Below are positions 2,736 to 39,705 of a stretch of 64,000 nucleotides of DNA, piece by piece; positions within the stretch are counted from its first letter, which is position 1; every line of letters begins with the position of its first letter. The position numbers and the translations under genes are program-made. The notes under the pieces were generated by a model. The model searched no databases and had not been told where the DNA came from. It saw only the letters and a program-made list of their open reading frames with translations. The stretch is from Phytoactinopolyspora halophila (lineage in GTDB: Bacteria > Actinomycetota > Actinomycetes > Jiangellales > Jiangellaceae), in assembly GCF_003287285.1 (NCBI RefSeq), contig NZ_QMIG01000017.1:1-64000 (forward strand). Reading direction: 5' to 3'.

Positions 2736-3125
2736 CTACTTCTTGCGGAACTTCTTGCGTGCGTCGCGTCGCTTCCACACCGTCTCATCGGACGCTGTCG
2801 ATCCGGCCCGCTGCTGGCGCATCGGCGCTGATGGAGCGGGAACGTAGTCCGGCGCGGTCTGGCGTCGCATAAGCATGACGCCGTCATAGTCAACGGGGGT
2901 CCAGTCGTGTCCGTGTACCTCGAAGGCCAGCCGCTGTTCACCGCTCACGGCATAGACCAGCAGTGCACGGCCGTCTTCAACGAACTCGACCACTCGTTCC
3001 CACATGTGCTGCCGTACCCGTGCAGAGACGTATCCGACGAAGACGCCTGGGCTGATCTCCAGCAGCCATCGGGTCAGGTGTCCCCGTAAACCTGGCGGTA
3101 CGGCCGTCAGAACCACGATGGTCAT
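2736..3125 (-). CDS. cas2: CRISPR-associated endonuclease Cas2, type I-E
   Basis: Cas2 forms the central dimer of the Cas1-Cas2 integrase that inserts new spacers at the leader end. The N-terminus (MTIVVLTAVPPGLRGHLTRW) is characteristic of the I-E (ygbF-like) subfamily, as is the VGYVSARVRQHMWERV segment. At 129 residues it is longer than E. coli Cas2 because of a basic tail after about residue 88, ending in a Lys/Arg cluster (KRRDARKKFRKK). Its ATG overlaps the cas1 stop as ATGA, so the two are translationally coupled. It is the last gene of the cas operon, followed directly by the array 1 leader. Confidence 0.96.
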   Translation of the reverse strand: MTIVVLTAVPPGLRGHLTRWLLEISPGVFVGYVSARVRQHMWERVVEFVEDGRALLVYAVSGEQRLAFEVHGHDWTPVDYDGVMLMRRQTAPDYVPAPSAPMRQQRAGSTASDETVWKRRDARKKFRKK

Positions 3126-4815: not shown

Positions 4816-4816
4816 G

Positions 4817-5545: not shown

Positions 5546-6663
5546 TCTCCGGATCCCAGGCGCGACTCGACGACGGTGCCCAGGCTGGAAACGAGATCGC
5601 CCAACGGCACGCTGCCACCGAGGTCGTCCAGGCTCGACGTGTCGTCGCCGACCCGGGTGACCCAGCTCGCCACCGGCGACTCCGCGTACGCTCGCTCGAT
5701 CTCGCTCGCCTCGTCGCGCAAGGCCTGCGACGCCCGCTTGATCCGGCCTTCAACTTCGGATTCACGCACCGGATTCTCGAAGGCGCCGACCAGGTTGACC
5801 GGCTGGCTGTCACGCACCATCACGACGACGGCTTCCGGCAGCGTGCGATTGGCGAACGTGTTCTGTTTGCCCGTTGGCATGGAGCGCACGAACGACTCGA
5901 CGAATGTTTCCACTGCCCGGCGGGTGGCCGATACGTCGCCGAGGTTCTCCGCCAGCCGGTTCACGTCGACGGTCGCGTACCGGTACAGCGTGGACGAGTT
6001 GAACTCGACCGTGCCGATCATTCCGGCACCGGTCTCTTCCTCGGGGTTCGTGTCGTCGACCGCGGTGAAGTAGTCGAACTCGGTTTCTACCGGGTGCACG
6101 CTGATCGCGTGCGCGACCTGTGCCGATGCGTCGACGTTCAGGTCGGCCTGATCAGCGACCATCCGGCCGAACAGCGAGATCGCGATCGAATGGTCGCGGT
6201 CGGCCAGATCCTTGACCTTTGCCTCCTTCAGAGCTTTGCCGACGTCGTCGGTGTCCGACGCCTCGACTGCCGCGCGCGCCAGGCTCTCGATCTGGCGGCG
6301 GCTGAGAAAGACCAGGTAGCCGGATTCCTCGGTGGCGTCCTTTTTCGGTGCCTTCACCTCGATACCGACCGCTTTGAACGTGGCGACGGCCAGCTCGTGC
6401 GCGCGCTCTTCCAGCGCCGGTTCCTGCCTGCGGATTTCTTCCGCCAGCAGTTCGACGACGCGGCGTGTGCGCACTCCCAGCTCGGATGGGTCGATCTTGT
6501 CCTGGAAATCCACCCGGGTGGCACGTTTCCAGGCCTGGCTCGATACCCGGGCGCGGCGTACGCCGCCGTACACGGCGGTCTTCGGGCTGCCGGTGTCGTC
6601 ACGGTTGAGGTTGCTCGGCGGGACGGTCTGCAAGATGTGAACGTCGATGATCGTGCGGCTCAT
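5542..6663 (-). CDS. cas7e: Cascade backbone subunit Cas7e (CasC/Cse4)
   Basis: This subunit polymerises along the crRNA to form the Cascade filament that displays the guide. The N-terminus contains the conserved blocks VHILQTVPPSNLNRDDTG and RRARVSSQAWKRATR, and GKQNTFANRTLP occurs further on. It is 373 residues. It begins 13 nt after the cse2 stop and overlaps cas5 by 4 nt, so the order cse1-cse2-cas7-cas5-cas6 matches standard I-E operons. Confidence 0.96.
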   Translation of the reverse strand: MSRTIIDVHILQTVPPSNLNRDDTGSPKTAVYGGVRRARVSSQAWKRATRVDFQDKIDPSELGVRTRRVVELLAEEIRRQEPALEERAHELAVATFKAVGIEVKAPKKDATEESGYLVFLSRRQIESLARAAVEASDTDDVGKALKEAKVKDLADRDHSIAISLFGRMVADQADLNVDASAQVAHAISVHPVETEFDYFTAVDDTNPEEETGAGMIGTVEFNSSTLYRYATVDVNRLAENLGDVSATRRAVETFVESFVRSMPTGKQNTFANRTLPEAVVVMVRDSQPVNLVGAFENPVRESEVEGRIKRASQALRDEASEIERAYAESPVASWVTRVGDDTSSLDDLGGSVPLGDLVSSLGTVVESRLGSGE

Positions 6664-6676
6664 GGCTGGTGCTCCC

Positions 6677-7387
6677 CTACTCGTCGTCGCTGTCTGTGCT
6701 GGTGGAGGGCGCGTCGTCGGCCGTCTCGCTGCTCGACGGCACGTGCACCCGGTGGAAGTCGCGACCCCAGGTCAGCCGTACGCCCGTTGCCCAGCCGGGA
6801 GTCAGCAGGCCGTGGATGTCGTCGGCGAAGGCGGCATAGTCCAGGCCGATGCTGCATGCCTTGAGCTGGGTGACGAGGCCGCGAACGTGGACGAGGATCT
6901 CGTCGATCGTCTCTGCCGTGGCGACCGCCATGAACCGCCGTTCGACGGCGTCCTCGCTCACCTCGGGACGGCTGGCCAGATATCGAACGGCGCGGCCGAA
7001 GGAGGTACCGGGTACGTGCATGGCATCCTGCCTCGACTGCTGGTGCACCGCGTAGAGGGTGAGGGCCGCGTGGGCTGCCTGCTCGGCCCGGCTGGCGTGC
7101 TCGTCAGTCCCGGCGAGCTGCTCGGGTACCGCACCGATGGTCGTCTCCCAGATCTCCGGGACGCTTCCGGCTGGCTTGCCCAGGCCACGGCGCAGGCGCG
7201 CCAGCTCGGCGCGCGCCGCGGGCCGGCCCTCGAGATACTCGCGTTGCAGCTTGCTGATCGTCCACTGCAGCGCCGATCCCAAAGCCCTCATGCGGCGGTG
7301 TCGCTGCTGCGGTGCCACCGCCGTCTTCGTAGCCGTCTCCGCCGCCGTATCGGTCGTCATCTCCGCCGCCGTGTCGGTCGTCGTCAT
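6677..7387 (-). CDS. cse2: Cascade small subunit Cse2 (CasB)
   Basis: Cse2 forms the inner dimer of Cascade and stabilises the R-loop. The core (about residues 30-205) has the all-helical composition of the family with segments such as GRAVRYLASR and VERRFMAVATAETIDE. The protein is long (236 aa) because both ends carry low-complexity tails. The N-terminal tail is built from a tandem 24-nt repeat (7337-7384) encoding Thr-Asp-Thr-Ala-Ala-Glu units; the C-terminal tail is Ser/Thr/Asp-rich. Its start overlaps the cse1 stop by 4 nt. Confidence 0.93.
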   Translation of the reverse strand: MTTTDTAAEMTTDTAAETATKTAVAPQQRHRRMRALGSALQWTISKLQREYLEGRPAARAELARLRRGLGKPAGSVPEIWETTIGAVPEQLAGTDEHASRAEQAAHAALTLYAVHQQSRQDAMHVPGTSFGRAVRYLASRPEVSEDAVERRFMAVATAETIDEILVHVRGLVTQLKACSIGLDYAAFADDIHGLLTPGWATGVRLTWGRDFHRVHVPSSSETADDAPSTSTDSDDE

Positions 7388-9018
7388 TGCGTCTCCTCGT
7401 CTGTTGCAAAGGCCAGCGCCAGGTGCTTGCGCAGCGAAGCGCGGAACCAGGCTTCGGCGACGGAAACGTTCACCAGCCGACTGTTGATCGTCCGTCCCCT
7501 CCAGGCGGCCGGACCGGCCGACTCCAGCACCTCATTCACGATCGGCCAGCACGCATCACGCACTGTCAACTGCCACGACGTCCGCGCCTGCTGGGCATCG
7601 GTGCCGGAGCGCAGCTCGCCAAGCCACCTGCGATACGGCGTTTCCAGCGCGGCATACAGGGCCTCGCGGGGCCGATCACCCGCGCCTGAACCCCGCTCGG
7701 CACCGGCTGCCTGCGCGATGTTGTCGGCCAGGGTCCACACCGCGTACGCCACGTTCTCGGCGTCCTGCACTGCTCCCTCGGCCGTCCGGCCGAGTTCGAC
7801 GCTCTCCTCGTTGATCAGGGCAGCCGTCATGGCCAGCACGTCGTCGACGATCTCGGCGAACGTCGCGCTCTGCGGGCCGTACTCCACGCCGACGATCCGG
7901 TTGCGCACCGGGTAGTCCTCCGGCAGGGAATCGCGACGGACGAGATCGCTGATCCACTGCAGGACACCCGGCGCGAGCGACGGCCGGGGTTCCTGCCCGC
8001 TCGTTCGCCGTCCCGACAGCGAGGGCAGCATCGCGCCCAGACCTCGCCAGACCGAGCGGCTCGGATCGTGCACCCGTGGCATGTAGACGACCTGCTTGAA
8101 TTTCTTGCTCTGCGGCTCGCTGTGCCGCCAGGTGGTGTGCGGCTCCACCGGGTTCCGGTTGTGTGGCTGGATCTTGTCGCCGTTCGCCAGTACGACACCG
8201 GTGACGCCCCGCCGATCGCCCACCAGCCGGATCCGGCGGGTTTGCCACGTGTAAAGGTCGATCGCACCCGCCGGCGGGCGATCTTCGTCCCATGTCGGGC
8301 CGTCGACGTCGCGTTCCCACGGCGGCACGTCGTCCCGGCCACCGATCCGGACGTAATCCGATGCCTCGCGGCCGATGAGGTTGAGCAGCAACGTCTCACG
8401 CAAGTTCCGCCCCTCGGGGAGGACGCCTCCGATCTGCCCGCTCCATCCCGGGCCAATCGGGTAGCCCTTGCCGCCCTTGGCTTTCGGATCGTCGACCGCG
8501 CCGGTCTTGATCCCAGAGGGATCGAACGCCTGCGTATTCACTAGCCAGCGCGCAGCCTCGGCAGCCTCGATGCGTTCCAAGCTGGCAGCTGAGCGCGTCG
8601 TGAAGTACGGCGCGCCGTTCGGCACGTCGGCGACAATCTTCTCCAGCCCGCTGACCTCATCCTTGGCGCTACGAAGGCCGGGCACCTGGAAAAACGGCTG
8701 CGTCGCGTCGAACAGATCGAACCGGTGCCGGACGCGGCCGGCGTATGTGGTTATCTCCTCCATCGGCAGCGAGCCGGCTCGCCACAGCTCCTCCCAGTCG
8801 TCGCCGTCTTCGGGCCCGTCGATCGCACGGTGCAGGAACGCCAGCAACAGCCGGGTGATAGCGAACCCCTGCGTGGGCACCTCGCCACCGATCGTGACCA
8901 GATCCGGCGCCTTCTCGAACACCTCGAGGACCGACACCTGCTTCTCGTCGCCATGGGGTGTGAGCACCACGATCCACGGTTCGTCGAGCAGGTTGAAGCC
9001 GCCGTCATCCGCCGTCAT
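7384..9018 (-). CDS. cse1: Cascade large subunit Cse1 (CasA/Cas8e)
   Basis: The large subunit reads the PAM and recruits Cas3. The opening residues FNLLDEPWIVV are the classic CasA N-terminus. I use the ATG at 9018 (GGAGGTG upstream on the minus strand), giving 544 residues; an in-frame upstream codon at 9099 would add 27 residues unlike the family. It overlaps the end of cas3 by 14 nt in another frame. The C-terminal four-helix region contains INSRLVNVSVAEAWFRASLR. It is the first Cascade gene after cas3. Confidence 0.95.
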   Translation of the reverse strand: MTADDGGFNLLDEPWIVVLTPHGDEKQVSVLEVFEKAPDLVTIGGEVPTQGFAITRLLLAFLHRAIDGPEDGDDWEELWRAGSLPMEEITTYAGRVRHRFDLFDATQPFFQVPGLRSAKDEVSGLEKIVADVPNGAPYFTTRSAASLERIEAAEAARWLVNTQAFDPSGIKTGAVDDPKAKGGKGYPIGPGWSGQIGGVLPEGRNLRETLLLNLIGREASDYVRIGGRDDVPPWERDVDGPTWDEDRPPAGAIDLYTWQTRRIRLVGDRRGVTGVVLANGDKIQPHNRNPVEPHTTWRHSEPQSKKFKQVVYMPRVHDPSRSVWRGLGAMLPSLSGRRTSGQEPRPSLAPGVLQWISDLVRRDSLPEDYPVRNRIVGVEYGPQSATFAEIVDDVLAMTAALINEESVELGRTAEGAVQDAENVAYAVWTLADNIAQAAGAERGSGAGDRPREALYAALETPYRRWLGELRSGTDAQQARTSWQLTVRDACWPIVNEVLESAGPAAWRGRTINSRLVNVSVAEAWFRASLRKHLALAFATDEETQ

Positions 9019-11917
9019 CCGCAAACACCTCCAGTCCCCTCGCTGCCGTGTAGCGGACACGACGGCCGTTGATCTCTGCCCACCCGTGCTCGTCGACAAC
9101 GAGTGCCGGCAAGCGGAAGATCAAGTGCGAGTGTTCCCACGACGGCGGGGTCGCGCTCCACAGCTCTTCCTCGGCGTCGGCGTTGCTGAACGTCAGCGGC
9201 AGCCGGATGGCACAGGCCGCCATGACCTCGGCGAGGTCGTCCGGCGGCACGTCGTCTGCCGGGATCTCGCGCCCGCCCTCCTCGGCCAGCCACGATGGTG
9301 TGTGCAGCACGCCCGCGGCGCTACGCTGCACCAGCATCGCTTCCAGGCTCGGCGCACCGTCACGGACCTGGCCCTGGCCTTGCGCCTCCTCGTCGGCTTC
9401 GCCGGCCGACGCCGTTATCCAGCCGACGATCGCCTTGCCGGGCTTCGCCGGATCGTTGATCTGGAAATGCCCTGCCTTGTCCTCGCGCCGCCTGCTGGAC
9501 TCTCGTGACGTCTGCTCGGCCCCGGCCATGGCCTCCTGCCAGCTGTCCGGGCCGACGGGCTCGCCGCCATAGGCCCGCTGGACCAGCGGCGCGATGTCAG
9601 CCGGGAGCTCGACAACACCACCCAGCCGCGGCGTCAGGACGGCGGCAGCGCGATAGAGCACGTGGGCGTCGTAGACGTACCGCGCGGCGACCGGCTCCAA
9701 CGCCGGTGGATCTCGTGACATGTCGGTGCCGCCGATATATGTGCGTGCCGTGCGAAGCTTGGCCGGCCGGTCGGTCTGATCCACACCCCGCTGGTGCCGG
9801 TGCAGCCGTCCCATCCGCTGCAACACCAGATCAATCGGCGCGAGATCGGTAACCAGCAGATCGAAGTCGACGTCGAGCGATTGCTCGACCACCTGCGAGG
9901 AGACGACGATGTGGCGTGTTGGCCTGTGCACGGCACGCGACGGCGAGCCGAACAGGTCGAGCAGCCGTTCGTCGTTGCGCACCCGGTCCGCCGTGATGAA
10001 ACGCGCATGCGTCACCGTGATCTCGCCGGGGAACTCATCCTCCAGCCACTCGGCGGTCGCCAGAACCCTGTTCACGGTGTTGCGTACCACGAGCGCGGTT
10101 CCGCCACCGGAAAGCTTGTCACGCAGAATCGCGATGAGTGACGCTGAGTCGTCGCCGTGTTCGTCGCACTCCAGGGCGTCCACATGGACCGACGTGCCAC
10201 GTCCCGACGGTTCAGCTACCCGCGTGTGGACGTCGTTGCCGTCCGTCCAGGTCAACACCGGGTAGCCGATGTCACCATCGATCTCGCCGGTTGCGCCAGT
10301 GGTCTCGGCGTTCGAGCCAGTGGCCTCGGCGTCGCTCGCGCCTACATCGTCAGCGGTGCCACTTACTGCTCGCGCCCGGCCTCGCCGATACGCCTCCACC
10401 AGCTCCCGGCGCCGGTACCCGGGCAACGTTGCCGACAGCGCTACGACGGGAACGCGATAGGCACCGAGCCACGTGAGCACCCGCAGCAGGTACGAGTTCA
10501 TGTACGCGTCGTAGGCATGGATCTCATCGATCACGACGACCTTGCCGGCCAGCGCCAGATGCCGCAGCATCAGATGCCGCGCCTTCAGGCCGGCGAACAG
10601 CAGCTGATCGATCGTGCCGATAGTGAAGTTGGCCAGCTGCGCCTTCTTCCGGCCGGTCAACCACGAATGCGCGACGACGCGGTGCGCCGGCTCCTTGCGC
10701 CGCCGGTTGCCGCCGACCTGCTGGTCACGATCGATCTCACGCGTCCGACCGGCCGAGACGAAACCCCGGAAGAGACGATTGAACTGCTTCTTCCCGTGAG
10801 CCAGCATGATCGATCCGCCGATCTGCTGGTGATCGGCACCGATTGCGTCGAGCCAGTCGACTACTCGCGCGAACATGGCGTCGCTGGTGGCCTGGGTCGG
10901 TAGCGCGACGAACAGGCCGCCGGCGCCCCAGCGGCTCGCCAGGATCTCGGCCGCTGCCAGCGCCGCCTCGGTCTTGCCCTCCCCCATGGGTGCCTCGACG
11001 ACGAGCAGACCCGGCTCTGACATCTCCCCGGCGACGTCGACGGTGCTCGCCTGAACCGGGCGCGGTGTCGCGCCGTCAGGAAATGCGAATCTCCTGGTGA
11101 ACAACTCCTCGGTCGTGGTGTGCGGCAGCGCTGCACGCCACGGCACCGGCAGGCGCAAAGATCGAAGGGCGCGACGCGCCCGGTCGGTGCGGTCGGTGAC
11201 GTGAGGCAGGTCGTCGGCGTGAAACGGAAAGAGTTCCTCGTTACTGGCAATCCAGTCGGCCAGAATCACCAGCCCGGTCTGCAGTACCTGGGCCTGCTGG
11301 GAGAATTTGACATCTGCCCACTTCTCCAGATGCTCCACGGCTCCGGTCCGGCCTGCCTGACGTTCCAGCAGCTCGTCCCAGACGTCGCACCAGAGCCCTT
11401 CGCCATACAGCTTCGGGTAGGCCCGGGGCGTGCAATCCAGGTCGACCGGCTCGGGCGGAGTCCCGTGATGACCCCCGAGCACGACGGCCCACGCCTCGGC
11501 CGCGCGTCCCGGCCATCCACGGTCACGAAGCCAGCGCTTGAAGATGTGGTGTCCCGTCACCGTGTGATGAGCGCGCTCGCGCTCCATCAGCTCGTTCTTG
11601 TGTGCCGGAGTGAACAGCCCCAACCCGCTCATCTGCTGCCCCAGCAGGGTGTGCTGCACCGCAAACGCGGGCGTTGCCTTGCCGATGTCGTGCACGCCAG
11701 CAAGAAAACGGCACGCCGTACGGGCCATGACGACATCGCCCGCGAACTCGGCAGCGATGAGATCGACGACGTTGCGCGAAAGCCACTCGTCGAAGAGCTG
11801 GCCGGCGACGTCGGCCGAGTCGTCCATGTGCTGCCACAGCGGCAGCCACTCCCCCCGCTCATTCGGGGACTTCGCCCACACCGACCGAGCGGCACTGCTC
11901 AAAGATCGATCCCCCAC
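9005..11917 (-). CDS. cas3: CRISPR nuclease-helicase Cas3
   Basis: Cas3 is recruited by target-bound Cascade to unwind and degrade DNA. The N-terminal HD nuclease contains GVHDIGKATPAF (about residue 75) and a GGHHG metal motif near 150. The SF2 helicase shows Walker A APMGEGKTEA (about 310), DEIH box VVVIDEIHAY (about 465), SATLP (about 497) and motif VI LQRMGRLHRH (about 705). I prefer the GTG at 11917, since the 39 codons upstream of it (ATG at 12034) encode an Arg-rich stretch unlike Cas3, while GTG gives the usual ARSVWAKS N-terminus behind a G-rich ribosome site. A low-complexity Ala/Thr/Gly/Asp insert lies near residue 525. The length is 970 aa. It is the first gene of the cas operon. 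Confidence 0.96.
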   Translation of the reverse strand: MGDRSLSSAARSVWAKSPNERGEWLPLWQHMDDSADVAGQLFDEWLSRNVVDLIAAEFAGDVVMARTACRFLAGVHDIGKATPAFAVQHTLLGQQMSGLGLFTPAHKNELMERERAHHTVTGHHIFKRWLRDRGWPGRAAEAWAVVLGGHHGTPPEPVDLDCTPRAYPKLYGEGLWCDVWDELLERQAGRTGAVEHLEKWADVKFSQQAQVLQTGLVILADWIASNEELFPFHADDLPHVTDRTDRARRALRSLRLPVPWRAALPHTTTEELFTRRFAFPDGATPRPVQASTVDVAGEMSEPGLLVVEAPMGEGKTEAALAAAEILASRWGAGGLFVALPTQATSDAMFARVVDWLDAIGADHQQIGGSIMLAHGKKQFNRLFRGFVSAGRTREIDRDQQVGGNRRRKEPAHRVVAHSWLTGRKKAQLANFTIGTIDQLLFAGLKARHLMLRHLALAGKVVVIDEIHAYDAYMNSYLLRVLTWLGAYRVPVVALSATLPGYRRRELVEAYRRGRARAVSGTADDVGASDAEATGSNAETTGATGEIDGDIGYPVLTWTDGNDVHTRVAEPSGRGTSVHVDALECDEHGDDSASLIAILRDKLSGGGTALVVRNTVNRVLATAEWLEDEFPGEITVTHARFITADRVRNDERLLDLFGSPSRAVHRPTRHIVVSSQVVEQSLDVDFDLLVTDLAPIDLVLQRMGRLHRHQRGVDQTDRPAKLRTARTYIGGTDMSRDPPALEPVAARYVYDAHVLYRAAAVLTPRLGGVVELPADIAPLVQRAYGGEPVGPDSWQEAMAGAEQTSRESSRRREDKAGHFQINDPAKPGKAIVGWITASAGEADEEAQGQGQVRDGAPSLEAMLVQRSAAGVLHTPSWLAEEGGREIPADDVPPDDLAEVMAACAIRLPLTFSNADAEEELWSATPPSWEHSHLIFRLPALVVDEHGWAEINGRRVRYTAARGLEVFADDGG

Positions 11918-12182
11918 CGAACCCCCTCGGCGCGTTGCTGTGTCATCTGTCGTTCGGCGACCACAGAACCTTCCCCTCTTGCGGCCCTGCAGACGCCTCG
12001 ACGTTATGCCCCACCCCGGACACAACTCGCTCATCGCACGGATACGACGACCGCGATCTCCGTAGATTGGTAGATGAGCTACACGAAAACAAGCCCTTCA
12101 GTCTCTTGTATTTTCGTGCCGATCATCGTATTTGAACGCTTGGATCCGGCGGGACAGTGCGATGTGTGTTGCTGGTCCGACA
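11918..12182 (-). promoter_or_regulatory. Presumed cas operon promoter region
   Basis: This is the only non-coding gap upstream of cas3 and must contain the promoter of the eight-gene operon if it is a single transcript. I could not pick out a convincing -35/-10 pair or operator. A GATCATC at 12121-12127 may be a fully worn-out repeat of array 2. Confidence 0.4.
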
Positions 12183-14829
12183 GAACCATCCCCTTACGCG
12201 GGAGCATGGGCCGACCGGGTCATCTGGCCGAGTGCGGTGAGGGATCATCCCCACCGAAGGGAGCACGTACCCCGCGATGACGAGTGCTACTTCTGCGACG
12301 GATAATCCCCGCGCACGCGGGGAGCACAGGAGGGATCGATCCATGAGCACGTTCGCCGGAAGATCACCCCCGCGTGCACGGGGAGCACGACAAAGCATCA
12401 AGCATCGAATCACGTGTTTGTGGATCATCCCCGCGTGCGCGGGAAGCACCACAACTTCCGCGCTGTCAATGCCCTCAGCCCCGGATCATCCCCGCGTGCG
12501 CGGGGAGCACGAGTGCGCCGCGTGTACTGCGGAGAGTGTCCGAGGATCATCCCCGCGTGCGCGGGGAGCACCGTTTCTGGCGCGCCGCGAAATCGAGAAA
12601 GAACGGATCATCCCCGCGTGCGCGGGGAGCACGTCATGTCGGGCGGCGGGTCGAGCGGGGGCGCCGGATCATCCCCGCGTGCGCGGGGAGCACTGACAGC
12701 GACGTGTACGACGACCCACCGGTGTCGGATCATCCCCGCGTGCGCGGGGAGCACGGGAAACAACACCAACGACGGCAACCAGCCGCCAGGATCATCCCCG
12801 CGTGCGCGGGGAGCACCCCCGTTGACTGGGGCGATTCTGATGCCATGCCGGATCATCCCCGCGTGCGCGGGGAGCACGACAGCGACCGCCTCATCGTCTC
12901 CGAGTCCGGGGGATCATCCCCGCGTGCGCGGGGAGCACGTCACCAATACCAGCCGGCTCGCAAATCCCGACGGATCATCCCCGCGTGCGCGGGGAGCACA
13001 GCGGGCTGATCGGGCTGCGGTGGCCGGACCTGGGATCATCCCCGCGTGCGCGGGGAGCACAATCAGGGTCACGTGTTGACACGGCATGGTGCAGGATCAT
13101 CCCCGCGTGCGCGGGGAGCACTCTGCTGGTTTGGTGGTGCCGGCGCTCAAACGGGGATCATCCCCGCGTGCGCGGGGAGCACAATTGGTCTCGTCGTCGG
13201 TCTCGTCACCAACTAGGATCATCCCCGCGTGCGCGGGGAGCACTACGCGAAACCAGGATGCATCACTGACGATCGCGGATCATCCCCGCGTGCGCGGGGA
13301 GCACCTCGTGTAGCGGGATGATCCGTTCCTTGTCGCCGGATCATCCCCGCGTGCGCGGGGAGCACCCGCCAGCCAAGCCGATCAACGACGCTTCGAGAGG
13401 ATCATCCCCGCGTGCGCGGGGAGCACGCCATGTCGCCTTCCACCTCACGTGGCGTCCAGGGATCATCCCCGCGTGCGCGGGGAGCACTTCGACGGTGATG
13501 TGGCCACGTCGGGTGCGGAGGGATCATCCCCGCGTGCGCGGGGAGCACTTCACCAAGAGCGATAGCGACAGCAACTTCTAAGGATCATCCCCGCGTGCGC
13601 GGGGAGCACAAAATTGATACAGGCCAAACGCCAGGTTTATAAGGATCATCCCCGCGTGCGCGGGGAGCACGCTGTCAACGCGACACCGCGTAGTTTGGCG
13701 CTCGGATCATCCCCGCGTGCGCGGGGAGCAATGAACCCGATTTGGATAAGAGATAAGTCCCCGTGGATCATCCCCGCGTGCGCGGGGAGCACGCGTGGTT
13801 TGTTTTGCCGTGGATTTTGGGCATGGGATCATCCCCGCGTGCGCGGGGAGCACAGTGAGTCTGCGGCGCGCCCAGCTCGGCCAGCCGGATCATCCCCGCG
13901 TGCGCGGGGAGCACATCACCATCTAACATAACAACGCCAGGCTCTTCGGATCATCCCCGCGTGCGCGGGGAGCACCTTGTCGACGCTCAGCTGTTGCAGC
14001 CGCGCCAGGGATCATCCCCGCGTGCGCGGGGAGCACCGGACGTATCAATGTAGAACGTCTCTCCAGGAAGGATCATCCCCGCGTGCGCGGGGAGCACCTT
14101 GGTACGTGGTACCAAACTAACAGGTGATCGGGATCATCCCCGCGTGCGCGGGGAGCACACGGGCCACCGGACACCCCAGGCCGGTGGCCCGGGATCATCC
14201 CCGCGTGCGCGGGGAGCACGCCCGCCGAACCGCCCACGCTGTCGGCCGCCTGGGATCATCCCCGCGTGCGCGGGGAGCACACCCAGAGCGCCGGCGGGTG
14301 GCTGCACGAGAGGGGATCATCCCCGCGTGCGCGGGGAGCACTCCCCCGTGCTGTCCCTGTCCGAGCTGCACTGGGGATCATCCCCGCGTGCGCGGGGAGC
14401 ACCTCGTCGAGCAGCACCTGCAGGTCCTCGGAGAAGGATCATCCCCGCGTGCGCGGGGAGCACGATCGATGCGGGGGTGGGGTGGATGACTGCTGAGGAT
14501 CATCCCCGCGTGCGCGGGGAGCACGTTTCACCGATGCTGCCGGGAGCGAGTGGTCGGGGATCATCCCCGCGTGCGCGGGGAGCACATCGACGCGCTGGAC
14601 TGGCACGACCGCCTGCTGGGATCATCCCCGCGTGCGCGGGGAGCACATTTTGCTGGGCAGGCGAATTATCTGGCGAATCGGATCATCCCCGCGTGCGCGG
14701 GGAGCACCATACTCGCCGAGCTGGCGTTCGTTTGGGTAACGGATCATCCCCGCGTGCGCGGGGAGCACATCTGCTGGGAAGTATTGTCACAGTGGCACTT
14801 GGGATCATCCCCGCGTGCGCGGGGAGCAC
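12183..14829 (-). CRISPR. CRISPR array 2, type I-E, 42 repeats plus two decayed
   Basis: Forty-two 28-nt repeats run from 12300 to 14829 with a 61-nt period, the same repeat as array 1. One spacer (12755-12788) is 34 nt; the rest are 33. At the left, leader-distal end repeats are increasingly damaged: 12422 (one change), 12361 (begins AGATCACC), 12300 (three changes), and two 25-nt remnants at 12242-12266 and 12183-12207 that have both lost three bases from the stem. The repeat at 13704 ends in A instead of C. The spacer at 13122-13154 equals one in array 1. Orientation puts the leader and newest spacers at the right end. Confidence 0.98.
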
Positions 14830-14960
14830 ACTTGTTGACCAGCAGCAATATACGCCAGTACCCCGAATTTTAGTCAGTCTTGGTCGATCGCCGCGCTCAT
14901 CTCGATCCCGGTCAGACCCGTACCCGAGCGAGGCGAGCGTTGCACCATGTGATCGAATCA
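14830..14960 (-). promoter_or_regulatory. Leader of CRISPR array 2
   Basis: The sequence next to the newest repeat repeats the array 1 leader pattern: TTGACCAG 6 nt from the repeat edge (14835-14842) and CCGAATTTTAGTCAGTCTTG at offset 34 (14863). The right boundary is a guess. The shared motifs imply both arrays can be used by the same Cas1-Cas2. Confidence 0.7.
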
Positions 14961-15069
14961 AGAAGCGTTCCTGAGGTTCATCAGTTGTCGGCAGCGTAGC
15001 TGACGAACACGCTGAGGTGGATGGCTCGGCCAGGGGAAGCTGGGCACCCGTCGGTCACAACCTCGTGAA

Positions 15070-15240: not shown

Positions 15241-16614
15241 TTATGGCTCGACGCGCAAGCGCATCTTCACCTGGGCGGGCTCTTTCTTCGGACCCTCGCC
15301 GCTCACACTCACCATGTACAGGCCGGGTTCCTCGTAGGTGTGGGTAATCGAGTCGAAGGCCCCGATGGGCTGTTCCGGTGATCCGTCGCCGAAGTCGATG
15401 AGTACGTTGTTGACGTCAAGAAGGCAGGTCCAGAATTCGACCTCCGTGCCGGGTCTGATCTCACGGCTGGGCGAGTAATACGCCCAGCCGCGCGCAATCT
15501 TCTTACTCCAGGTCGGCGCGTAGACACGCACGGAGATCGCGTCCCAGTCCTCGGCGCCATCAGCAGTCCGCACGACGAGTTCTTCCGCGTAGTACCCGGG
15601 CCGCTCGTAGTGAACGTCGGCATAGATGCCTTTGACGACGCTGCCATCGTGCAGGTGCCACTCGTAATCGACGATCTCCGAACCTGGCCGCGCCACCGAG
15701 CGGCTGGCATCCAGCCGGTAGGTACCGTTCGTGCGGACGTGACCGAAATTGCCGGCCAATGCAAGAACCTCGTCCGGATACGTTCGGAAGTACGATTCGA
15801 TGAGCATCGGATAGGGGTTCACTTGGATCTCGTCGAGGTACAGCTCGACGTTCAACCGCGGCTCATACAGCAGTTTGCGGGCGCCGATACGCGTTTGCCC
15901 GGTCAGGCCGATGTGTTCGCCACGTTTCAGCTCGGTGCCAGCCACCACGTCGGTCCTGAGGTACTCGATGTTCATGTGTGAGTATCTGATCTGGGCACCA
16001 TCGCCAACGTCTTGCGTGACTGGGTTGTAGTCCTGGGCCACTCCGGGCCTCGGCGCCTTCACCACCGTGCCATCGCGCATAGCCACCACGGAGAGTCGAT
16101 CCGGGATCGCTCCCAGATCTTCACCACGTTGGTAGTACACACAATTGAACGGGACCATCGATCCCCACGTGTTGTGGTATGTGCTGCTTCTCCACCTGTA
16201 GTTGGCGATCGGAAACATGATATCTTCCGGAGCCCACGGCAGCCCCGCCTCGATCACCGAGAAACATACGTCCTGGTATCCATGGTACAGAGGGCGATAT
16301 TGTATAAATCCGTGTGCCCATTTCCCCACCGTCTCCACCATCAGACGCACGCCGCCCACGGTGACAGGAAGGACGCCTGGCCGACAGCATAGGACCATGG
16401 GCTCGCCATCCACTTCGACCGTAACCATCGCCGCCGCGATGATTCGATTGTCGTGGATTCCGTCGACCCAGTATTCGGGTTCTGTGTGATATTCGATGTC
16501 GATAGGCTTGATAACAGTCGTTCCATTGGAGGTATTCAGCTGCGCAGCCTCACCAAGATCCAACTCGAAAACTGTTGGCCAGGGACCCGTAGCCTGAACC
16601 TTATTCAGGATCAT
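15241..16614 (-). CDS. PKD-domain protein with M23-like segment
   Basis: A 457-residue protein without signal peptide or membrane segment. The C-terminal half holds two PKD-like beta-sandwich domains: one containing YEWHLHDGS (about residues 315-385) and one containing VLIDFGDGSPEQ and THTYEEPGLY (about 400-450). The middle (about 175-270) resembles the lysostaphin/M23 peptidase fold (MRDGTVVKAPRPG, IRYSHMNIEY, ELKRGEHIGLTGQTR), but the usual HLHFE metal motif reads RLNVELYL, so it is probably inactive. The ATG at 16614 is preceded by AGGTGA; an upstream ATG at 16674 lacks one. It is monocistronic, next to the array 2 leader. The function is unknown; binding of a cell-surface or secreted carbohydrate/peptide is a guess. 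Confidence 0.8.
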   Translation of the reverse strand: MILNKVQATGPWPTVFELDLGEAAQLNTSNGTTVIKPIDIEYHTEPEYWVDGIHDNRIIAAAMVTVEVDGEPMVLCCRPGVLPVTVGGVRLMVETVGKWAHGFIQYRPLYHGYQDVCFSVIEAGLPWAPEDIMFPIANYRWRSSTYHNTWGSMVPFNCVYYQRGEDLGAIPDRLSVVAMRDGTVVKAPRPGVAQDYNPVTQDVGDGAQIRYSHMNIEYLRTDVVAGTELKRGEHIGLTGQTRIGARKLLYEPRLNVELYLDEIQVNPYPMLIESYFRTYPDEVLALAGNFGHVRTNGTYRLDASRSVARPGSEIVDYEWHLHDGSVVKGIYADVHYERPGYYAEELVVRTADGAEDWDAISVRVYAPTWSKKIARGWAYYSPSREIRPGTEVEFWTCLLDVNNVLIDFGDGSPEQPIGAFDSITHTYEEPGLYMVSVSGEGPKKEPAQVKMRLRVEP

Positions 16615-17185
16615 TCGATCACCTATTGGTACGTGCTGTGTATAGGATCTGCGATCATCACGCGTGCTCATCACCCGGCCCAGCCGCTATCGAGCACGAT
16701 TTTCCGCTCCGGCAAGGAACGAGACGGGCCAAGATCAGCAACTTTCACCGCACTTCGGCCCCGCCCACAAAGCCCACCCGAAGAATCGCTTCAAATGACA
16801 AGAACGCCCGTCCGCTACCGGCGCCCATCACGATCTCCAGCGGAACTTCAGCCGAAATCATGAAGCTTTCTCGATAATGACAATTCGGCTCTTATGTGGA
16901 TATTTGACACTGAATCAGCACCTCTCACCATTCCCACCCCCTTCATTTCGCATTACTGAAACTTGAATTTTATTAATCGCATCATACGCCCGACCATGTG
17001 GCTCCGCAACCGCCCTCTGAGGATTCAATATTTTGCCTTTCGCGCGCGGGAACAACCTGCGGAGTCGAAGGAGCCCCCTGCACACAACACAACATCAGGG
17101 GCAAAATAGTATGTCGACCAGCCACGGCCACTATTGCCCTGGCGCCGATGTTCAATCGAGCGATGTCAACAAGAAAGAATTAAAG
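16615..17185. other. Divergent promoter region
   Basis: 571 nt between the divergent genes at 16614 and 17186, richer in A/T than the flanks. It should contain both promoters; TTGACA at 16904 could be a -35 element but has no clear partner. An in-frame ATG at 17111 could extend the acyltransferase. Confidence 0.4.
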
Positions 17186-20094: not shown

Positions 20095-21240
20095 TCATCT
20101 CCGGAATGACGCGTCGCTCAGCGTCTTGGTCAGGGCGTTGACGACGGTGAGCTGTTCGTCCGGGGTGATGCTCACGGAACTCGGCAGTGACAGGCCATTC
20201 CGGTATATGTGTTCGGCCGTCCGTCCGCCGAGACGTTCTGCTGACCTGTAGGGCGCCTGTCGGTGAATTGGCGGCCACAGTCGCCGCGCCTGCACGTCGA
20301 GCTCTGCCAGGGCGACCACCACATGGTCGACGTCTACGGGCTCGTCGTCGAGCAGCACCGAATAGAGCCAATATGAAGGGTCTGCCCACGAGGCCGCTGG
20401 TGCGGGCGTGAGGGGAAGTGGCCAGAGCCAGTCGTCATAGCGCTCCGCGATTGCACGTTTCGCGTCGAGGAAGGCGTCGAGACGCTCGAGCTGTGCCTGC
20501 CCCACGGCGGCAGCTAGATTGCTCAGGCGATAGTTATAGCCGACGGTGTCATGGACGTAATGTCCGGTCGCAAGCTTCGCCTGCGTCGTCAGGTGCCGGG
20601 CACGCGCTGCCAGATCGGCGTCGTCGGTCGTGATCATCCCGCCGCCACCGCTAGTCATGATCTTGTTTCCGTTGAACGAGAAGCACCCAATGTCACCGGC
20701 CGTGCCGACTTGCCTGCCAGCTAGTTGACCGGCACTCCATGACGCTCCCAATGACTCTGCGGCGTCCTCGACAATCGTGATGCCGAACCGATCTCGCAGA
20801 TCCAGCAAGGGTTCGAGCTGTGCGGGATGCCCCAGTACATGCACGACCTCGATAACGGCTGGGATCTGCTCACCGTCACGGGCTCGCCGGACGACGTCGT
20901 CGTGCAGCCGCTCGGTGTCCATGTTCCATGTCGTCGATTCGCTATCGACGAGCAACGCGTCGGCGCCCGTGTAGCTGATGGCGTTCACAGATGCGATGAA
21001 CGTGAAATCGGAGACCGCAACGAGCTGACCCGGCGCCGCACCGGCCACGCGCAAGGCGACGTGAAGTGCCGCCGTACCGCTCGAACAGGCCACGGCATGT
21101 CGCGCCCCCACGGCTTCGGCGAACTGGCGCTCGAATCGTTCGACGAACGGACCGACCGACGAGACATAGCCACTCGCGATGCATTCCTGGAGATAGTGTG
21201 ACTCGTTGCCATCCAGTGCCGGCTCGATCAAGGGAATCAT
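20095..21240 (-). CDS. legC: PLP sugar aminotransferase, LegC family
   Basis: A DegT/DnrJ/EryC1-type aminotransferase that would transfer an amino group to C4 of the 4-keto-6-deoxy UDP-sugar made by LegB. The N-terminus IPLIEPALDGNESHYLQEC and the block SGYVSSVGPFVERFE are characteristic of the LegC group. The PLP-binding Lys is in CFSFNGNKIMTSGGGG and the aspartate in IVEDAAESLGA. The chosen ATG at 21240 overlaps the legB stop as ATGA (381 residues); an upstream extension would lie inside legB. It is second in the operon. Confidence 0.9.
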   Translation of the reverse strand: MIPLIEPALDGNESHYLQECIASGYVSSVGPFVERFERQFAEAVGARHAVACSSGTAALHVALRVAGAAPGQLVAVSDFTFIASVNAISYTGADALLVDSESTTWNMDTERLHDDVVRRARDGEQIPAVIEVVHVLGHPAQLEPLLDLRDRFGITIVEDAAESLGASWSAGQLAGRQVGTAGDIGCFSFNGNKIMTSGGGGMITTDDADLAARARHLTTQAKLATGHYVHDTVGYNYRLSNLAAAVGQAQLERLDAFLDAKRAIAERYDDWLWPLPLTPAPAASWADPSYWLYSVLLDDEPVDVDHVVVALAELDVQARRLWPPIHRQAPYRSAERLGGRTAEHIYRNGLSLPSSVSITPDEQLTVVNALTKTLSDASFRR

Positions 21241-22232
21241 CGCTGGTACCTCCCGGCACGCACTGCGTCCACCCGAGGTTCGAGCCATCGCGCCGTCTGC
21301 GCCAGACCGTCTCGCAACGTCCATGTCGCCTGCCAGCCCAGTTCGCCTTTGGCCGTGCTCGGTTCGGACAACAGGACCTGCACTTCGCTGGCGGGCGGGC
21401 GGATCCGTTCCGGATCGGTACTCACCTGCGCTTCGACGCCAGTGACGTCGCAGCAGGCGGAGAACAGCTCACCAATCGAGACAGCGTCTCCCGTACCGAG
21501 CTGCAGCACAGAGCCCGAGACGAGCTCCGAAGTGGCGATACGAACGAATCCATCCACCGTGTCCGTCACATACGTCAGATCCCGGCGTGGGCTGAGACTG
21601 CCCAGCCGGACCGTCGTCGCACCACAGAGGAGCTGACCCAGAATGGTGGGGATCACGGCACGGGCAGATTGGCGGGGTCCATAGGTGTTGAACGGGCGCA
21701 AGATCAATACATCGCCATCGAAGGAGCGGGCATACGCCTCGCACAACTGATCAGCGCCGATCTTCGACGCCGCGTAAGGCGACTGCGCATGCAGTGGATG
21801 TGCCTCCGTGATGGGAATCGACTCGGGCGTCCCGTAGACCTCGCTGGTGGAAGTATGAATCATCCGAACATCGCCACGGTCTCGGACAGCTTCGAGCACG
21901 TTCAGCGTGCCGGTGACATTCGTGTCCACGAACGATGCTGGGCTCTCGTAGCTGTAGGGGATGGCCACGAGAGCTGCCAGGTGAAACACCACGTCGACGT
22001 TCGCCACTGCTTGCTGCACGGTTCTGGCATCACGGATGTCGCCGAGGCGCACGTCAATATCTGCTAGCCGCTCGCTGTCCAGCTCGTCGAGCCAGCCGAA
22101 AGAACCGTTGGAGTTGTAGATACAGAAGGCCGAGACTTTGGCCGCCTCGTCCAGCAACCGCTCAACCAGATGACTACCGATGAATCCGTCAGCTCCCGTC
22201 ACCAACACACGCTTGTCCGCGAGACTTACCAC
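21237..22232 (-). CDS. legB: UDP-N-acetylglucosamine 4,6-dehydratase, LegB family
   Basis: An extended SDR predicted to convert UDP-GlcNAc to the 4-keto-6-deoxy sugar, the first step towards legionaminic-type acids. The opening VLVTGADGFIGSHLVERLL followed by FCIYNSNGSFGWLDEL is the LegB signature (an aromatic YNS...GWLD block after the Rossmann strand). STSEVYGT, the PYAASK catalytic Tyr/Lys pair and RPFNTYGPRQ are all in place. It is 331 residues. First gene of the minus-strand operon, divergent from rmlA across about 240 nt that must hold both promoters. Confidence 0.9.
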   Translation of the reverse strand: MVSLADKRVLVTGADGFIGSHLVERLLDEAAKVSAFCIYNSNGSFGWLDELDSERLADIDVRLGDIRDARTVQQAVANVDVVFHLAALVAIPYSYESPASFVDTNVTGTLNVLEAVRDRGDVRMIHTSTSEVYGTPESIPITEAHPLHAQSPYAASKIGADQLCEAYARSFDGDVLILRPFNTYGPRQSARAVIPTILGQLLCGATTVRLGSLSPRRDLTYVTDTVDGFVRIATSELVSGSVLQLGTGDAVSIGELFSACCDVTGVEAQVSTDPERIRPPASEVQVLLSEPSTAKGELGWQATWTLRDGLAQTARWLEPRVDAVRAGRYQR

Positions 22233-22469
22233 GCGCTCCCCTTTCGGCTGCTATAGCGAATCGGCCAGCCTTTACGCATCGATCGTCGGCGCACTGGGCA
22301 CGACCGGGACAGGGGTCTGTTTTATGCGGTACCAGCAGAACTCATCCCCCTTTACTGATGCTTTTCCCTGGAGTTGGAATATTTTTGCGCCTATGCGCCC
22401 TTTCAGCACCCGCGCCACAGATTGATGACGCTGATCAGGGCGTTCACACGTAACGACGGTGGGAGCATG

Positions 22470-23345
22470 ATGAAAGGAATAATCCTTGCCGGCGGCAGCG
22501 GAAGTAGGCTGTATCCAATAACGATCCCCACTTCCAAACAACTTCTTCCGGTTTACGACAAGCCGATGATCTATTATCCGCTGTCAGTGCTAATGTTAGC
22601 GGGAATCACCGACATTCTGATCATTACGACGCCACCGGATCGGCCGATATTTGAGCGTCTACTCGGCGACGGTTCATGGATCGGAATCGAGCTGAGTTAT
22701 GCCGAGCAAGCAAAACCCAGCGGCCTGGCTGAGGCGTTCATCATCGGCGCTTCGCATATAGGCGAAGACTCAGCTGCTCTCATCCTTGGCGACAACATCT
22801 TCCACGGCCCCGGCTTCGCCCAGGTCCTGCGGGACCGAAAACACCACATCGAAGGATGCACGCTGTTCGGCTATCCAGTCTCCGATCCACACCGCTACGG
22901 CGTGGGCGAGGCCGACGATGACGGCCGGCTCATCTCGATCGAGGAAAAGCCAGCGCAGCCCCGGTCCAACCGCGCCATCACCGGGCTGTATTACTACGAC
23001 AACGATGTGATCGACATTGCCAAGCAACTCGAACCATCCGACCGTGGCGAGCTCGAGATCACCGACATCAACCGCGTCTACCTCGAACGCGAAAAGGCCC
23101 ATATCGTCGACCTCGGGCGTGGATTCGCCTGGATGGATGCAGGTACGCACCAGTCTCTCCTCGAGGCCAGCCAGTACGTACACACACTCGAGGAACGCCA
23201 AGGCGTCCGGATAGCGTGCCTGGAAGAGATCGCGTTCAGAATGGGTTTCATCGGTGCAGAAGACTGCTACTCCCTGGGCCGGCGACTCGCGAACTCCCGC
23301 TATGGGCAATACGTCATGGAAATCGCGCAATCCGAAGGGAAGTGA
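22470..23345 (+). CDS. rmlA: Glucose-1-phosphate thymidylyltransferase
   Basis: RmlA makes dTDP-glucose from glucose-1-phosphate and dTTP. The N-terminal nucleotidyltransferase motif [18 protein letters not shown] is exact, followed by [24 protein letters not shown] and the sugar-binding [10 protein letters not shown]. It is 291 residues, full length. Two adjacent ATG codons (22467, 22470) sit just behind GGTGGGAG; I choose the second because of spacing. It opens a plus-strand operon with rmlD (6 nt gap) and an rmlC-like gene. Confidence 0.96.
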
Positions 23346-33761: not shown

Positions 33762-34439
33762 CCTTTACCGTTCCGCAGTTCGCATCCGGTTACCTCGTCG
33801 TGGCCATCATGTGATATCAAAATTCTCTCTCGTTCTCGCCAATTCGATTATCCCTAAAGTTCTTGCCCTACTCAGCTGCAACCCGCAGAATGGGTGGTCA
33901 GGTAATTTCTGACAAGGGGTACTCTACGGTTGGACATGTTTTCTTGTTCCTGCAGGCGTTGCGCCACACGCTAAATCTTAAATTCTTACAACATTGTTGC
34001 GCATGTTATTCACAATTATTTCACCATTTTCAGGAATTTAAGTAGGGGGCAATTTTCGTCGGATTGATACTTCTTCAGTTCAAACAACTTGTTCATACCC
34101 TCGGGTCTTGCGACAATGACGGCCAGAGTGACAATGTCGGATGAAAATGCCAATTGGCTAAAAACCATTAACCATAGGCTTTGACGACTCGAAATCTATT
34201 TGATTTGACTTTCGGAGATGACTCAGGCGTAGCGCATTAGACGTTCTTGAGGCAGCCTGCACGAGAATATTATTTAGGGGAGGTAGTTTGCGCAGAACTT
34301 AGTGTGAACGATAGCTTTCGCCAGCGATACGAGATTTGCGCGTGCGACATTCACAGTCTGTTGGACAGGAAAACGATGACGATACTCGCCGCAGAGCAAC
34401 GTCAGATCCTGCCGCCAGCTCCCTGATACCCCTTGTCAG
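33762..34439. other. A/T-rich intergenic region
   Basis: No gene recognised. It holds the promoter region of the MFS gene at its left edge and merges into an IS110 relic on the right. Confidence 0.4.
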
Positions 34440-35102
34440 CAAAACGACATGTTGTGCGCGAGCGCGTTCGAGGCGGAGGTGCTGGTCGCGTCCGACCACG
34501 TCGCAGCCGAGGCTACCCGGTTCGGCGAACCGCATCCTCGGACCATTGGCCGACGTCCACTCGCCCCCGAGCATGTAGATACCCGCCTTATCGAAGCCAA
34601 CCCGGCCACGCTGAACGAGTATATCGTGACCGTGCCCGGCACCACCGCCGCCGACAGAGTGCTGCGGCAGCTGCCAGACAGCAGCTTGAAAACGGCGCTT
34701 TCTCAGCCGCATTAGCGGCTCAGGTCGAGGAACTACTTCATGCCTACCGTCATGCGCAGCTCCTAACCTCCACCCCCGGCATCGGAGTCAGCAATTACGC
34801 CCGCATCCTCTTCGAGACCGACGACGCCTCGCACCTCACCAAGTCGGCATACCTCACCGCCTACGACAGCGTCGCCCCCATCACCCGCAAATCCAACACC
34901 AGCTTCAAGGGCGAACACCCGGCGCAGGAGACAAGCGCAAACTCAAACGCCCGTGCTTCCTCGTCGCCACCGCATCTGTGTTAAAACCGGCCAGTCGGGC
35001 TCGGCACCACAACAAACGCGACCAAGGAAGGCACCCAAAGCCGCCGTCATCTGCCTCGCCCACCTAACGCCATTATTATTCCCCCACGCCCAGTTCCGCT
35101 GT
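34440..35102 (+). pseudogene. Second IS110-family transposase relic
   Basis: Pieces of an IS110 transposase in shifted frames: VAAEATR, SANRILGPLADVHS, then after an internal deletion EYIVTVPGTTAADRVL, AAQVEELLHAYRHAQLL, STPGIGVSNYARILFE, YLTAYDSVAPITRKS and finally AAVICLAHL. It has diverged well beyond the copy at 27163, so it is an older, independent insertion. The N-terminal catalytic domain is missing. Confidence 0.7.
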
Positions 35103-36241: not shown

Positions 36242-37792
36242 ATGACCTTAATAACAGCATTTCCCTTGAAACGGTTGACTGAGGTGAGAGTCGAAAGCTT
36301 CGGGCAGAACGTCATAACATTAGATTCACTCAAAGACCATGCGTCCTCTGGAGCCAGACATATCCTGATTGAGGTGAACGCCGCGCACACAGGATCGCAA
36401 CCACAGTACTGCGAAGTTGTAATAAATTCCGACCGGCGAAAAGTCTACAACTGGCGGGAATTTAGTGCCGGGACGCGAGGGGTACTTACGAGGTACAAGC
36501 TTGAGCAAACCACAGGCCATGGCGTCGATATCCCCTCGCGCGACCAGGATTTATACGGCGGCGGATTTCTTCTATTTCCGAATGCCTTTCACTCGGACAA
36601 TCTAAAGATCTTCCAAACAGTTGGGTCATCTGTCGAGGAAAGATTCAATCGACATGTAGGCATATACATGCGACCCGAACCCATAGACTCAATTCAACTC
36701 CGGCCATCACAAGACGTGGAACAAGACAACGCCTGGGACATTGGAAGCATTTTTCAATTATACGCAGTCGACGAAAGCCATCTTGTGGGCGAGCAGCATC
36801 CGGGAGCCGACGGTAGGATAACCGTAACTGAACCACTACGAGATACAAATCATCTTTCGTTGTTAATGCACATGCGCGCCCAGGAAGGAGTGGAGGCTTG
36901 GCAAGGTGAACGCATCTATCAGATCGTAAATGGATCAGATAATGATGACCGCTACGTGGTTCAGCGACTTGGTGGCGAAAACAACGAGGTAAATAAGATA
37001 ATTGACGGAAGGTTTATCGAACAAAGAGTCGGATGGTCGCCGGATGAACTCGCCCCAAAAGGCTCATTTGGCACGATTGCGGCACTTTATCCAGAACTTC
37101 AAAGTGCCGAATTTTATCAGTCTTGGATTAGCCAGCACGCGTCATCGGAAGGCGTATATTTTCCCGTCAGTCAGGAGAATGGTCGATGGGAATATCGGGA
37201 CCGGGTTTCCGAATTGCGATTCTACCCTAGATTCCGGTCAGGAAGCGCCGTCGGCTCCCGTATAGACGCTTATCGGGTACCATCAAATCCGACGACACGT
37301 TATCTAGTTGGTGAAGGCGGCGACAGATTAGTGAAGCTTGATGTCCCGCCAGGGGTAGTATGCCTTAGGGCAATTTTCGTCGCACGCACTGACGCCGACC
37401 AAGTCGAGGACGGCATCCTGATTGAACTCAATGAAGATACAAGCACCTTAAACTACGCTCGAAGGCGAGTATCTGCCGCGGACGGAACACATGAGACCGG
37501 TCGCGCAGATGACAATGAGTTCGGTGTTGCTCCGGGCCGTCGCGCACCGTCGAATGTGTTTGGTTGCGGTATTTTGAACTTTCTCCAACACGCCGCAGAC
37601 GATAGGGAAAAGCATGTCCTCGCAATCGTCGGCACATCTGGAGGTCGCCTTGCACTGTATGGTGGACGGTGGCGTAGTAGACATCCAGTTAAGTCAGTGA
37701 CCTTCAAGCCTAGAATGGGGAACGTCTTTGAGAAAGGTTCGGCATTCGAACTGTCGTTCGTTCCAGAGACCGCTAATCACATATGGGGTTGA
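36242..37792 (+). CDS. Protein of three tandem beta-rich modules, function unknown
   Basis: 516 residues, no signal peptide, no membrane helix, Asp/Glu/Arg-rich. I see three copies of one module of roughly 160-175 residues. Each opens with a hydrophobic strand then Tyr/Ile-Asn-x-Asp (VVINSDRRKVYNWR; YQIVNGSDNDDRYVVQR; ILIELNEDTSTLNYARR). Each closes with a V-x-S-x-x-x-x-P-R-type strand ending Gly-Ser-x-Phe/Ile-x-x (WDIGSIFQLYAV at about 166-177; AVGSRIDAYRV near 340; EKGSAFELSFVP near 500). Such closing strands recall phage tail or receptor-binding sandwich modules, but I cannot name a family. The ATG at 36242 sits 9 nt after GAGAG. It is A/T-rich and monocistronic. Confidence 0.8.
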   Translation: MTLITAFPLKRLTEVRVESFGQNVITLDSLKDHASSGARHILIEVNAAHTGSQPQYCEVVINSDRRKVYNWREFSAGTRGVLTRYKLEQTTGHGVDIPSRDQDLYGGGFLLFPNAFHSDNLKIFQTVGSSVEERFNRHVGIYMRPEPIDSIQLRPSQDVEQDNAWDIGSIFQLYAVDESHLVGEQHPGADGRITVTEPLRDTNHLSLLMHMRAQEGVEAWQGERIYQIVNGSDNDDRYVVQRLGGENNEVNKIIDGRFIEQRVGWSPDELAPKGSFGTIAALYPELQSAEFYQSWISQHASSEGVYFPVSQENGRWEYRDRVSELRFYPRFRSGSAVGSRIDAYRVPSNPTTRYLVGEGGDRLVKLDVPPGVVCLRAIFVARTDADQVEDGILIELNEDTSTLNYARRRVSAADGTHETGRADDNEFGVAPGRRAPSNVFGCGILNFLQHAADDREKHVLAIVGTSGGRLALYGGRWRSRHPVKSVTFKPRMGNVFEKGSAFELSFVPETANHIWG

Positions 37793-38576: not shown

Positions 38577-39705
38577 CTAGTGTCGCGTGTCGTAAATGGC
38601 CTTAGGGTTGGTGTTTGAAACCATGCAGCTTGGCGAATCGTGCTGCCCCGGCGTTGATGCTGCGTGATCGTGACCGTGCCGAGCTGCAGCGGTGGACGCG
38701 CGTGTCGACCGCGCCGGCGGGGCTGGTGCGGGGGCGCGGATTGTGTTGATGGCTGCCGACGGTGTGGCTAACGAGCGGATCGCGACGAGCGTGGGCGTGT
38801 CGGTGCCGACGGTGCTCACCTGGCGGGGCCGGTATCAGAGATCGGGCCTGGCGGGCCTCGGCGACGCCGCTCGCTCGGGGCGTGCGCGCAGCGTGGATCA
38901 CCGGGCGATCGTGACCGCGACACTGACGCCTCCGCCGAAGAAGGTCGGGGTCACACACTGGTCTTCGCGACTGCTCGCGGCGAGGTTAAAGGTCAGCCCG
39001 GCCACGGTGGCGCGCGCGTGGCGGTCCTACGGGATCCAGCCGTGGCGGGCCGAGTCGTTCCGGTTCTCCACCGATCCCGAGCTGGTGGGCAAGGTCACCG
39101 ATGTGGTCGGGCTGTACCTGGCCCCGCCGCAGAACGCGGTCGTGCTGTGTGTGGACGAGACGTCGCAGATCCAGGCGCTGGATCGCAGCCAGCCGGTTCT
39201 GCCGATGCAACCGGGACGGGTCGAGCGGCGTTCGCATGACTCCGTCCGACACGGCACCTCGACTCTGTTCGCCGCGCTGGACATCGCGACCGGGCAGGTC
39301 ACCGCCACGCTCAAGCCGCGGCACCGCCGCCAGGAGTTCCTCGCGTTCTGCAAGCAGGTCGCCCGCGCCTACCCCACTGGCGAGCTGCACCTGGTGATGG
39401 ACAACTACGCAGCGCACAAGACACCCGAAATGCGCGCCTGGCTGGAGGCGAACCCGCGCATACACGTCCACTTCACCCCCCGACTCACGCCTCCTGGATG
39501 AACCTCGTCGAGGTCTGGTTCGGCCTCATCGAGCGCCAAGCCCATCCGCCGCGGCGTGTTCACCTCCGTCAAAGACCTCAACACCAAGATCCGCGTCTTC
39601 ATCGACGGCTGGAACAACCGATCCCACCCCTTCATCTGGACCAAGACCGCCGAACAAATCCTCGCCAAGGCCAACCCTCAGAAGACTTCAAAGACGAACC
39701 ACTAG
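38577..39705 (+). mobile_element. IS630-family element inserted into an older IS630
   Basis: The element is bounded by CTAG on both sides (38577-38580 and 39702-39705), the target preferred by IS630/Tc1-like elements, which duplicate the central TA. Its ends are imperfect inverted repeats (TAGTGTCGCGTGTCGT on the left; TAGTGGTTCGTC on the right, complementary strand). Removing it rejoins the two halves of a second transposase on the opposite strand. Confidence 0.75.
38657..39705 (+). pseudogene. IS630-family transposase, frameshifted
   Basis: Reading starts at ATG 38657 (MLRDRDRAELQRWTRVS), shifts near 38725 into ARIVLMAADGVANERIA and continues through SVPTVLTWRGRYQRSGL, the first DDE Asp in VVLCVDETSQIQALDRS and the second in ELHLVMDNYAAHKTPE. 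It shifts near 39480 to HASWMNLVEVWFGLIERQ (the Glu) and again near 39540 to RRGVFTSVKDLN and AEQILAKANPQKTS. The stop codon lies in the terminal CTAG. With three shifts it is inactive, but it is much better preserved than its host element. Confidence 0.85.

Follow-up and report, generated by a model that had tools for sequence, protein, structure and literature searches.

The window analysed in this study is a stretch of 64,000 nucleotides from the soil actinobacterium Phytoactinopolyspora halophila (contig NZ_QMIG01000017.1, positions 1 to 64,000). Its forward strand contains an open reading frame of 516 codons, confirmed from the ATG at 36242 to the stop codon ending at 37792, which encodes a three-module protein of 516 amino acids. 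The gene stands alone between an MFS gene, placed on the opposite strand and ending at 33761, and a truncated IS630-type transposase gene (38692..39501, + strand) recognised by Pfam matches to DDE_3 and HTH domains. An ORF upstream (34433..34984, + strand) looks like a transposase remnant, of the IS110 type by eye; it belongs to the low-GC island context and is separate from the protein. The GC content of the gene is 50.8% (GC3 0.49), against 64-68% in the normal genes of the window and 64-70% for such genes as cas3 and that of the rhamnosidase at the window edges. The surrounding stretch, from roughly 24 to 56 kb, is likewise low in GC and contains transposase pieces. No signal peptide or membrane segment was seen when the N-terminus was inspected by eye. 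The low GC content and the missing secretion signal had been pointed out in a sequence-only reading of this DNA, together with a solitary position away from phage genes. All three observations hold, the last one on the basis of Pfam and PHROGs searches of the tested neighbours, which found no phage structural genes beside the gene either here or in the second genome described below; neither copy therefore adjoins the structural genes that would mark a prophage or a tail operon.

Other features were observed in the same window. A low-GC sugar island (17033-46938) carries genes of the dTDP-sugar type, two EryCIII-like glycosyltransferases, a polysaccharide pyruvyl transferase, a GH3 enzyme and transposase pieces, as judged from Pfam and inspection. 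The regions 3122-12034 (reverse strand) and 12277-14974 hold what looks by eye like a CRISPR-Cas operon, with genes for Cas1 and for Cas3-like and Cascade-like proteins, next to two CRISPR arrays. The array repeats translate as GSSPRARGA / DHPRVRGEH open frames. Beside the CRISPR array is encoded a protein that Pfam relates to peptidase M23 and that carries two PKD domains (15241-16674, reverse strand).

The protein can be cut at residues 178 and 346 into module 1 (aa 1-178; 36242..36775), module 2 (aa 179-346; 36776..37279) and module 3 (aa 347-516; 37280..37789), all on the + strand. Judging from their sequences these are three diverged repeats of one module, alike above chance, as had been proposed from an alignment by eye. 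Local alignment gave a score of 51 for modules 1 and 3 (shuffled 28.8 +/- 4.4) and of 54 for modules 2 and 3 (shuffled 29.3 +/- 4.7), and in both cases none of the 300 shuffles scored as high. Modules 1 and 2 showed no direct similarity detectable by local alignment and are connected only through module 3, module 2 being the most diverged. The early turn, previously described as of the INSD/VNGSDND/LNEDT type, was also borne out: in all six modules of the two bacterial proteins this turn (NSD / NGSDND / NEDT) is in register, as is the closing strand with its Gly-Ser. The case for the threefold repeat is one of sequence and profile evidence, module 3 being the only module that was modelled well.

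The sole full-length homologue found in whole genomes belongs to Jiangella muralis, a member of the same family (NZ_LFXL01000051.1, 4059-5585), and shares 50% identity over 509 residues. It confirms the three-module layout, and the identity between the two proteins is about equal in each module. The start codon assigned in the window is confirmed, because the alignment begins at residue 1 and because GAGGAGGGA precedes the ATG of the homologue. The gene was present in two of the 22 genomes of the order and absent from the other 20. No other homologue was found in wider samples of the class and the phylum (394 and 396 genomes), bar weak chance matches, of which those inspected (loci L003-L005) proved to be antisense frames or an unrelated enzyme. 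The rarity applies to this sample, which was drawn evenly with one genome per species.

The J. muralis gene has 55% GC and forms a sharp dip between neighbours at 66-70%; both copies look foreign because of their low GC against the surroundings. The two genes are not syntenic. The J. muralis locus is flanked by genes for an FAD oxidoreductase and a small putative lipoprotein, which differ from the flanks in the window, and likewise has no phage neighbours. A link to the FAD oxidoreductase of the window, prompted by this neighbour, was dropped since the two belong to different subfamilies. Downstream of the J. muralis gene a stretch (locus L008, about 7060-8040) matches many places in Jiangella genomes and is possibly a dispersed repeat. 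The differences between the two genes at codon positions 1, 2 and 3 are 0.375, 0.291 and 0.648, a distribution that shows constraint at the protein level; no ratio is given since synonymous sites are saturated. Such purifying selection may date from a period of residence in phages.

Direct database searches with the window protein gave no Pfam, NCBIfam or PDB sequence match and no match to any PADLOC model of a known anti-phage defence protein, while its PHROGs matches were insignificant. BLAST and HMM searches of plasmids and phages with the same protein also returned nothing significant. The tblastn matches to Erwinia and Xanthomonas phages (E about 1) sit in an acetyltransferase-like protein and the match to a Rhodococcus phage runs antisense to a tape measure gene; these were regarded as chance.

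Profiles gave a different result. The earlier suggestion that the closing strand recalls phage tail modules was followed, as had been recommended, by a profile search against phage proteins, and hundreds of IMG/VR phage ORFs were matched. A bacterial profile built from the six modules of the two proteins, used with filters off, reached pelagiphage proteins of the phrog_14820 type with 21.3 bits at best, and 19 ORFs scored at least 10 bits against three reversed and no shuffled ones. IMG/VR was then scanned for the coding pattern FNGDTxxNYxxH and at least 120 stretches were retrieved. Against the phage ORFs of these stretches the bacterial profile gave a best match of 50.5 bits (E 2.7e-14), and among the listed stretches 319 of 2769 phage ORFs scored at least 10 bits, compared with three reversed and no shuffled ORFs. 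More than half of the significant domains in the listed stretches (156 of 247) lie in ORFs without the motif by which the contigs had been retrieved. As a control for circularity, a phage profile was made only from 120 motif-selected ORFs with the selection motif masked. The window ORF was recovered by this profile with an E of 4.8e-8, and hhalign aligned the profile to the bacterial one over 153 columns with a probability of 95.6% (97.7% unmasked). A broader phage-only profile scored 85.7 bits on the window ORF (E 8.8e-26), the next ORF of the window reaching 7.1 bits, but its rows had been chosen by the bacterial profile and the motif-masked profile is the cleaner test. Among the single modules this broader profile recognised module 3, the nearest to the phage modules, with 49.1 bits (i-E 1.6e-14) and module 1 with 28.6 bits (i-E 3e-8); module 2 was weakly recognised when alone (4.4 bits). 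In a separate search module 2 of J. muralis reached 14.7 bits. With profiles matching in both directions, the homology of the bacterial modules to the phage modules is firm.

The phage relatives comprise the C-terminus of phrog_35103, phrog_31512, the single-module ORFs of IMG/VR and the C-terminus of gp29 of Streptomyces phage Intolerant. Named phages have the module in their tail region: gp29 of Intolerant is flanked by minor tail proteins on one side and by the endolysin on the other, and the module of Erythrobacter phage XM05 is part of a tail protein. The phage and bacterial modules have in common an Asn-Gly-Asp turn, a Gly-x-Trp strand and a closing Gly-Ser-x-Phe-x-Leu-Tyr strand. The proteins of Pelagibacter phage HTVC010P, encoded by three related tandem genes (21026-22984) behind the tail fibre gene, were at first the best phage match, but modules of the Asn-Gly-Asp type are far closer. 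These phrog_14820 proteins share the length class and the closing strand, and with the bacterial profile several relatives reach as much as 21 bits; the proteins themselves are much more distant (hhalign probability 18.9%) and their kinship with the bacterial modules is probable.

The phage module is widespread and essentially unnamed. Eight phage members were scanned without any significant Pfam match, and members match PHROGs only partially, in fragmentary families of unknown function. The literature searches made turned up nothing on this module. The statement that the protein belongs to no known family stands as far as Pfam, NCBIfam and PDB are concerned, although by profile and fold each of its modules belongs to a large superfamily of phage modules. 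None of the 563 phage module ORFs carries two or more modules, and 181 of the 198 phage contig stretches carry two to nine module ORFs; one phage stretch of 9.7 kb (IMGVR_UViG_3300047457_000081) has nine of them, all on the same strand. One module per ORF is the usual though not strictly defining arrangement in phages, whereas the bacterial gene has three fused in one ORF with no tail gene near, which is unusual.

The structure prediction and structural search, also proposed earlier, were successful in part. The full-length AF2 model, made from a two-sequence alignment, had a pLDDT of only 32.6. Module 3, however, was modelled with a pLDDT of 95.3 and a pTM of 0.89 from an alignment of six bacterial and 97 phage modules, that is, of mostly phage rows. 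The model is all-beta with twelve strands, in agreement with the beta-rich module expected from the sequence, and the predicted fold is common to the phage and bacterial modules. Its best matches in BFVD are uncharacterised Caudovirales proteins (TM up to 0.88, E 1.6e-16, the alignment being mostly phage), several of them annotated as tail fibre proteins. Among PDB structures the model most resembles lectin-type sandwiches, galectins included, and GH32 C-terminal sandwiches. A phage-rich profile found no match among PDB sequences. The resemblance of the predicted sandwich to galectins and legume-/galectin-type lectins (Foldseek E 2.5e-4, prob 1.00) comes with a TM of only about 0.4, a VIA Z of at most 5.8, in the range of unrelated sandwiches, and 8 to 12% identity; moreover, neither the protein nor its single modules match the galectin family signature in Pfam (PF00337). 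The top VIA Z was 6.7, tied among many, and the GH32 C-terminal sandwich matches at this score were not taken as kinship. The sandwich arrangement is common, and a lectin-like predicted fold is no proof of sugar binding.

The likeliest explanation, to which we give an even chance, is that a phage attachment module has been exapted, in three fused copies, for the multivalent binding of surfaces or sugars. On this view one chain unites three diverged versions of a galectin-like beta-sandwich module from the end of phage tail operons, and the gene entered the two Jiangellaceae genomes by horizontal transfer, alone and with no phage genes at its side. The tip proteins of phages usually form homotrimers. 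Each module, or all three as a built-in pseudo-trimer, may bind a surface glycan or a similar ligand, as is presumed for the module on the virion. From the general role of tail-tip modules and from the lectin-like fold we infer that the protein binds a surface ligand, probably a glycan, in a multivalent manner. What the data show is the threefold repeat, the homology to phage modules, the predicted lectin-type fold of module 3, the foreign composition and the lack of phage genes nearby; ligand binding, pseudo-trimer and benefit to the bacterium go beyond them by inference. The route of the protein to a surface is doubtful because no signal peptide was seen.

The same composition and surroundings can also be read as those of cargo or a relic, left by a phage, a satellite or another mobile element and of no function to the host. 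The low GC, the IS remnants around the gene, the lack of synteny between the two genomes and the patchy occurrence in the order (20 of the 22 genomes lack the gene) would all fit, but the frame of 516 codons is intact in both genera, the two copies show constraint at the protein level, the tested neighbours in both genomes include no phage genes and none of the 563 phage module ORFs has the three-module form. We regard a relic as less likely than exaptation but as a serious alternative. Protection against phages is another use to which a tail-associated module, copied and fused, could be put: as a decoy or poison it would mimic the tail-tip module and block receptors or spoil the trimeric tip assembly of incoming phages. 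The missing signal peptide would suit a protein that acts in the cytoplasm while phages are being assembled, and the island location agrees with it; nevertheless there is neither a PADLOC match nor an adjoining defence partner, and we consider this role improbable, though worth keeping in view. That the protein represents a new beta-sandwich family of bacteria with no relation to phages, as the title of the earlier reading implied, can hardly be maintained. Pfam, NCBIfam and PDB gave no match and PHROGs no significant one, but the profile matches to phage modules in both directions and the phage-dominated fold matches have refuted it in the main.

An orphan bacterial protein is hereby tied to a very common phage module which is unnamed and structurally unsolved, the scanned members having no Pfam match and no PDB relative by profile, and the bacterial gene would be a soluble, fused version of it. 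More tentatively, and with somewhat less than even confidence, the gene may represent a bacterial takeover of a phage tail-tip attachment module as a single-gene, pseudo-trimeric soluble binding protein, either a lectin or a decoy against phages bearing the module. Should it act against phages or as a lectin, a part for virus attachment would have been put to bacterial use. Should the fusion take a pseudo-trimeric form, the structure and the ligand of the module could conveniently be determined on it.

Between the two species the modules pair 1-1, 2-2 and 3-3, and therefore the triple predates the split of the species. It may have originated by duplication or by fusion of adjacent phage genes, and the trees favour neither: one groups the six bacterial modules with a support of 71 and another needs two changes. 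Two further actinobacterial matches resemble prophage tail genes by eye. In another actinobacterium (L231, G103:C89, 1495-2136, reverse strand) a single-module gene lies beside a tail-fibre-like gene in a prophage-like setting.
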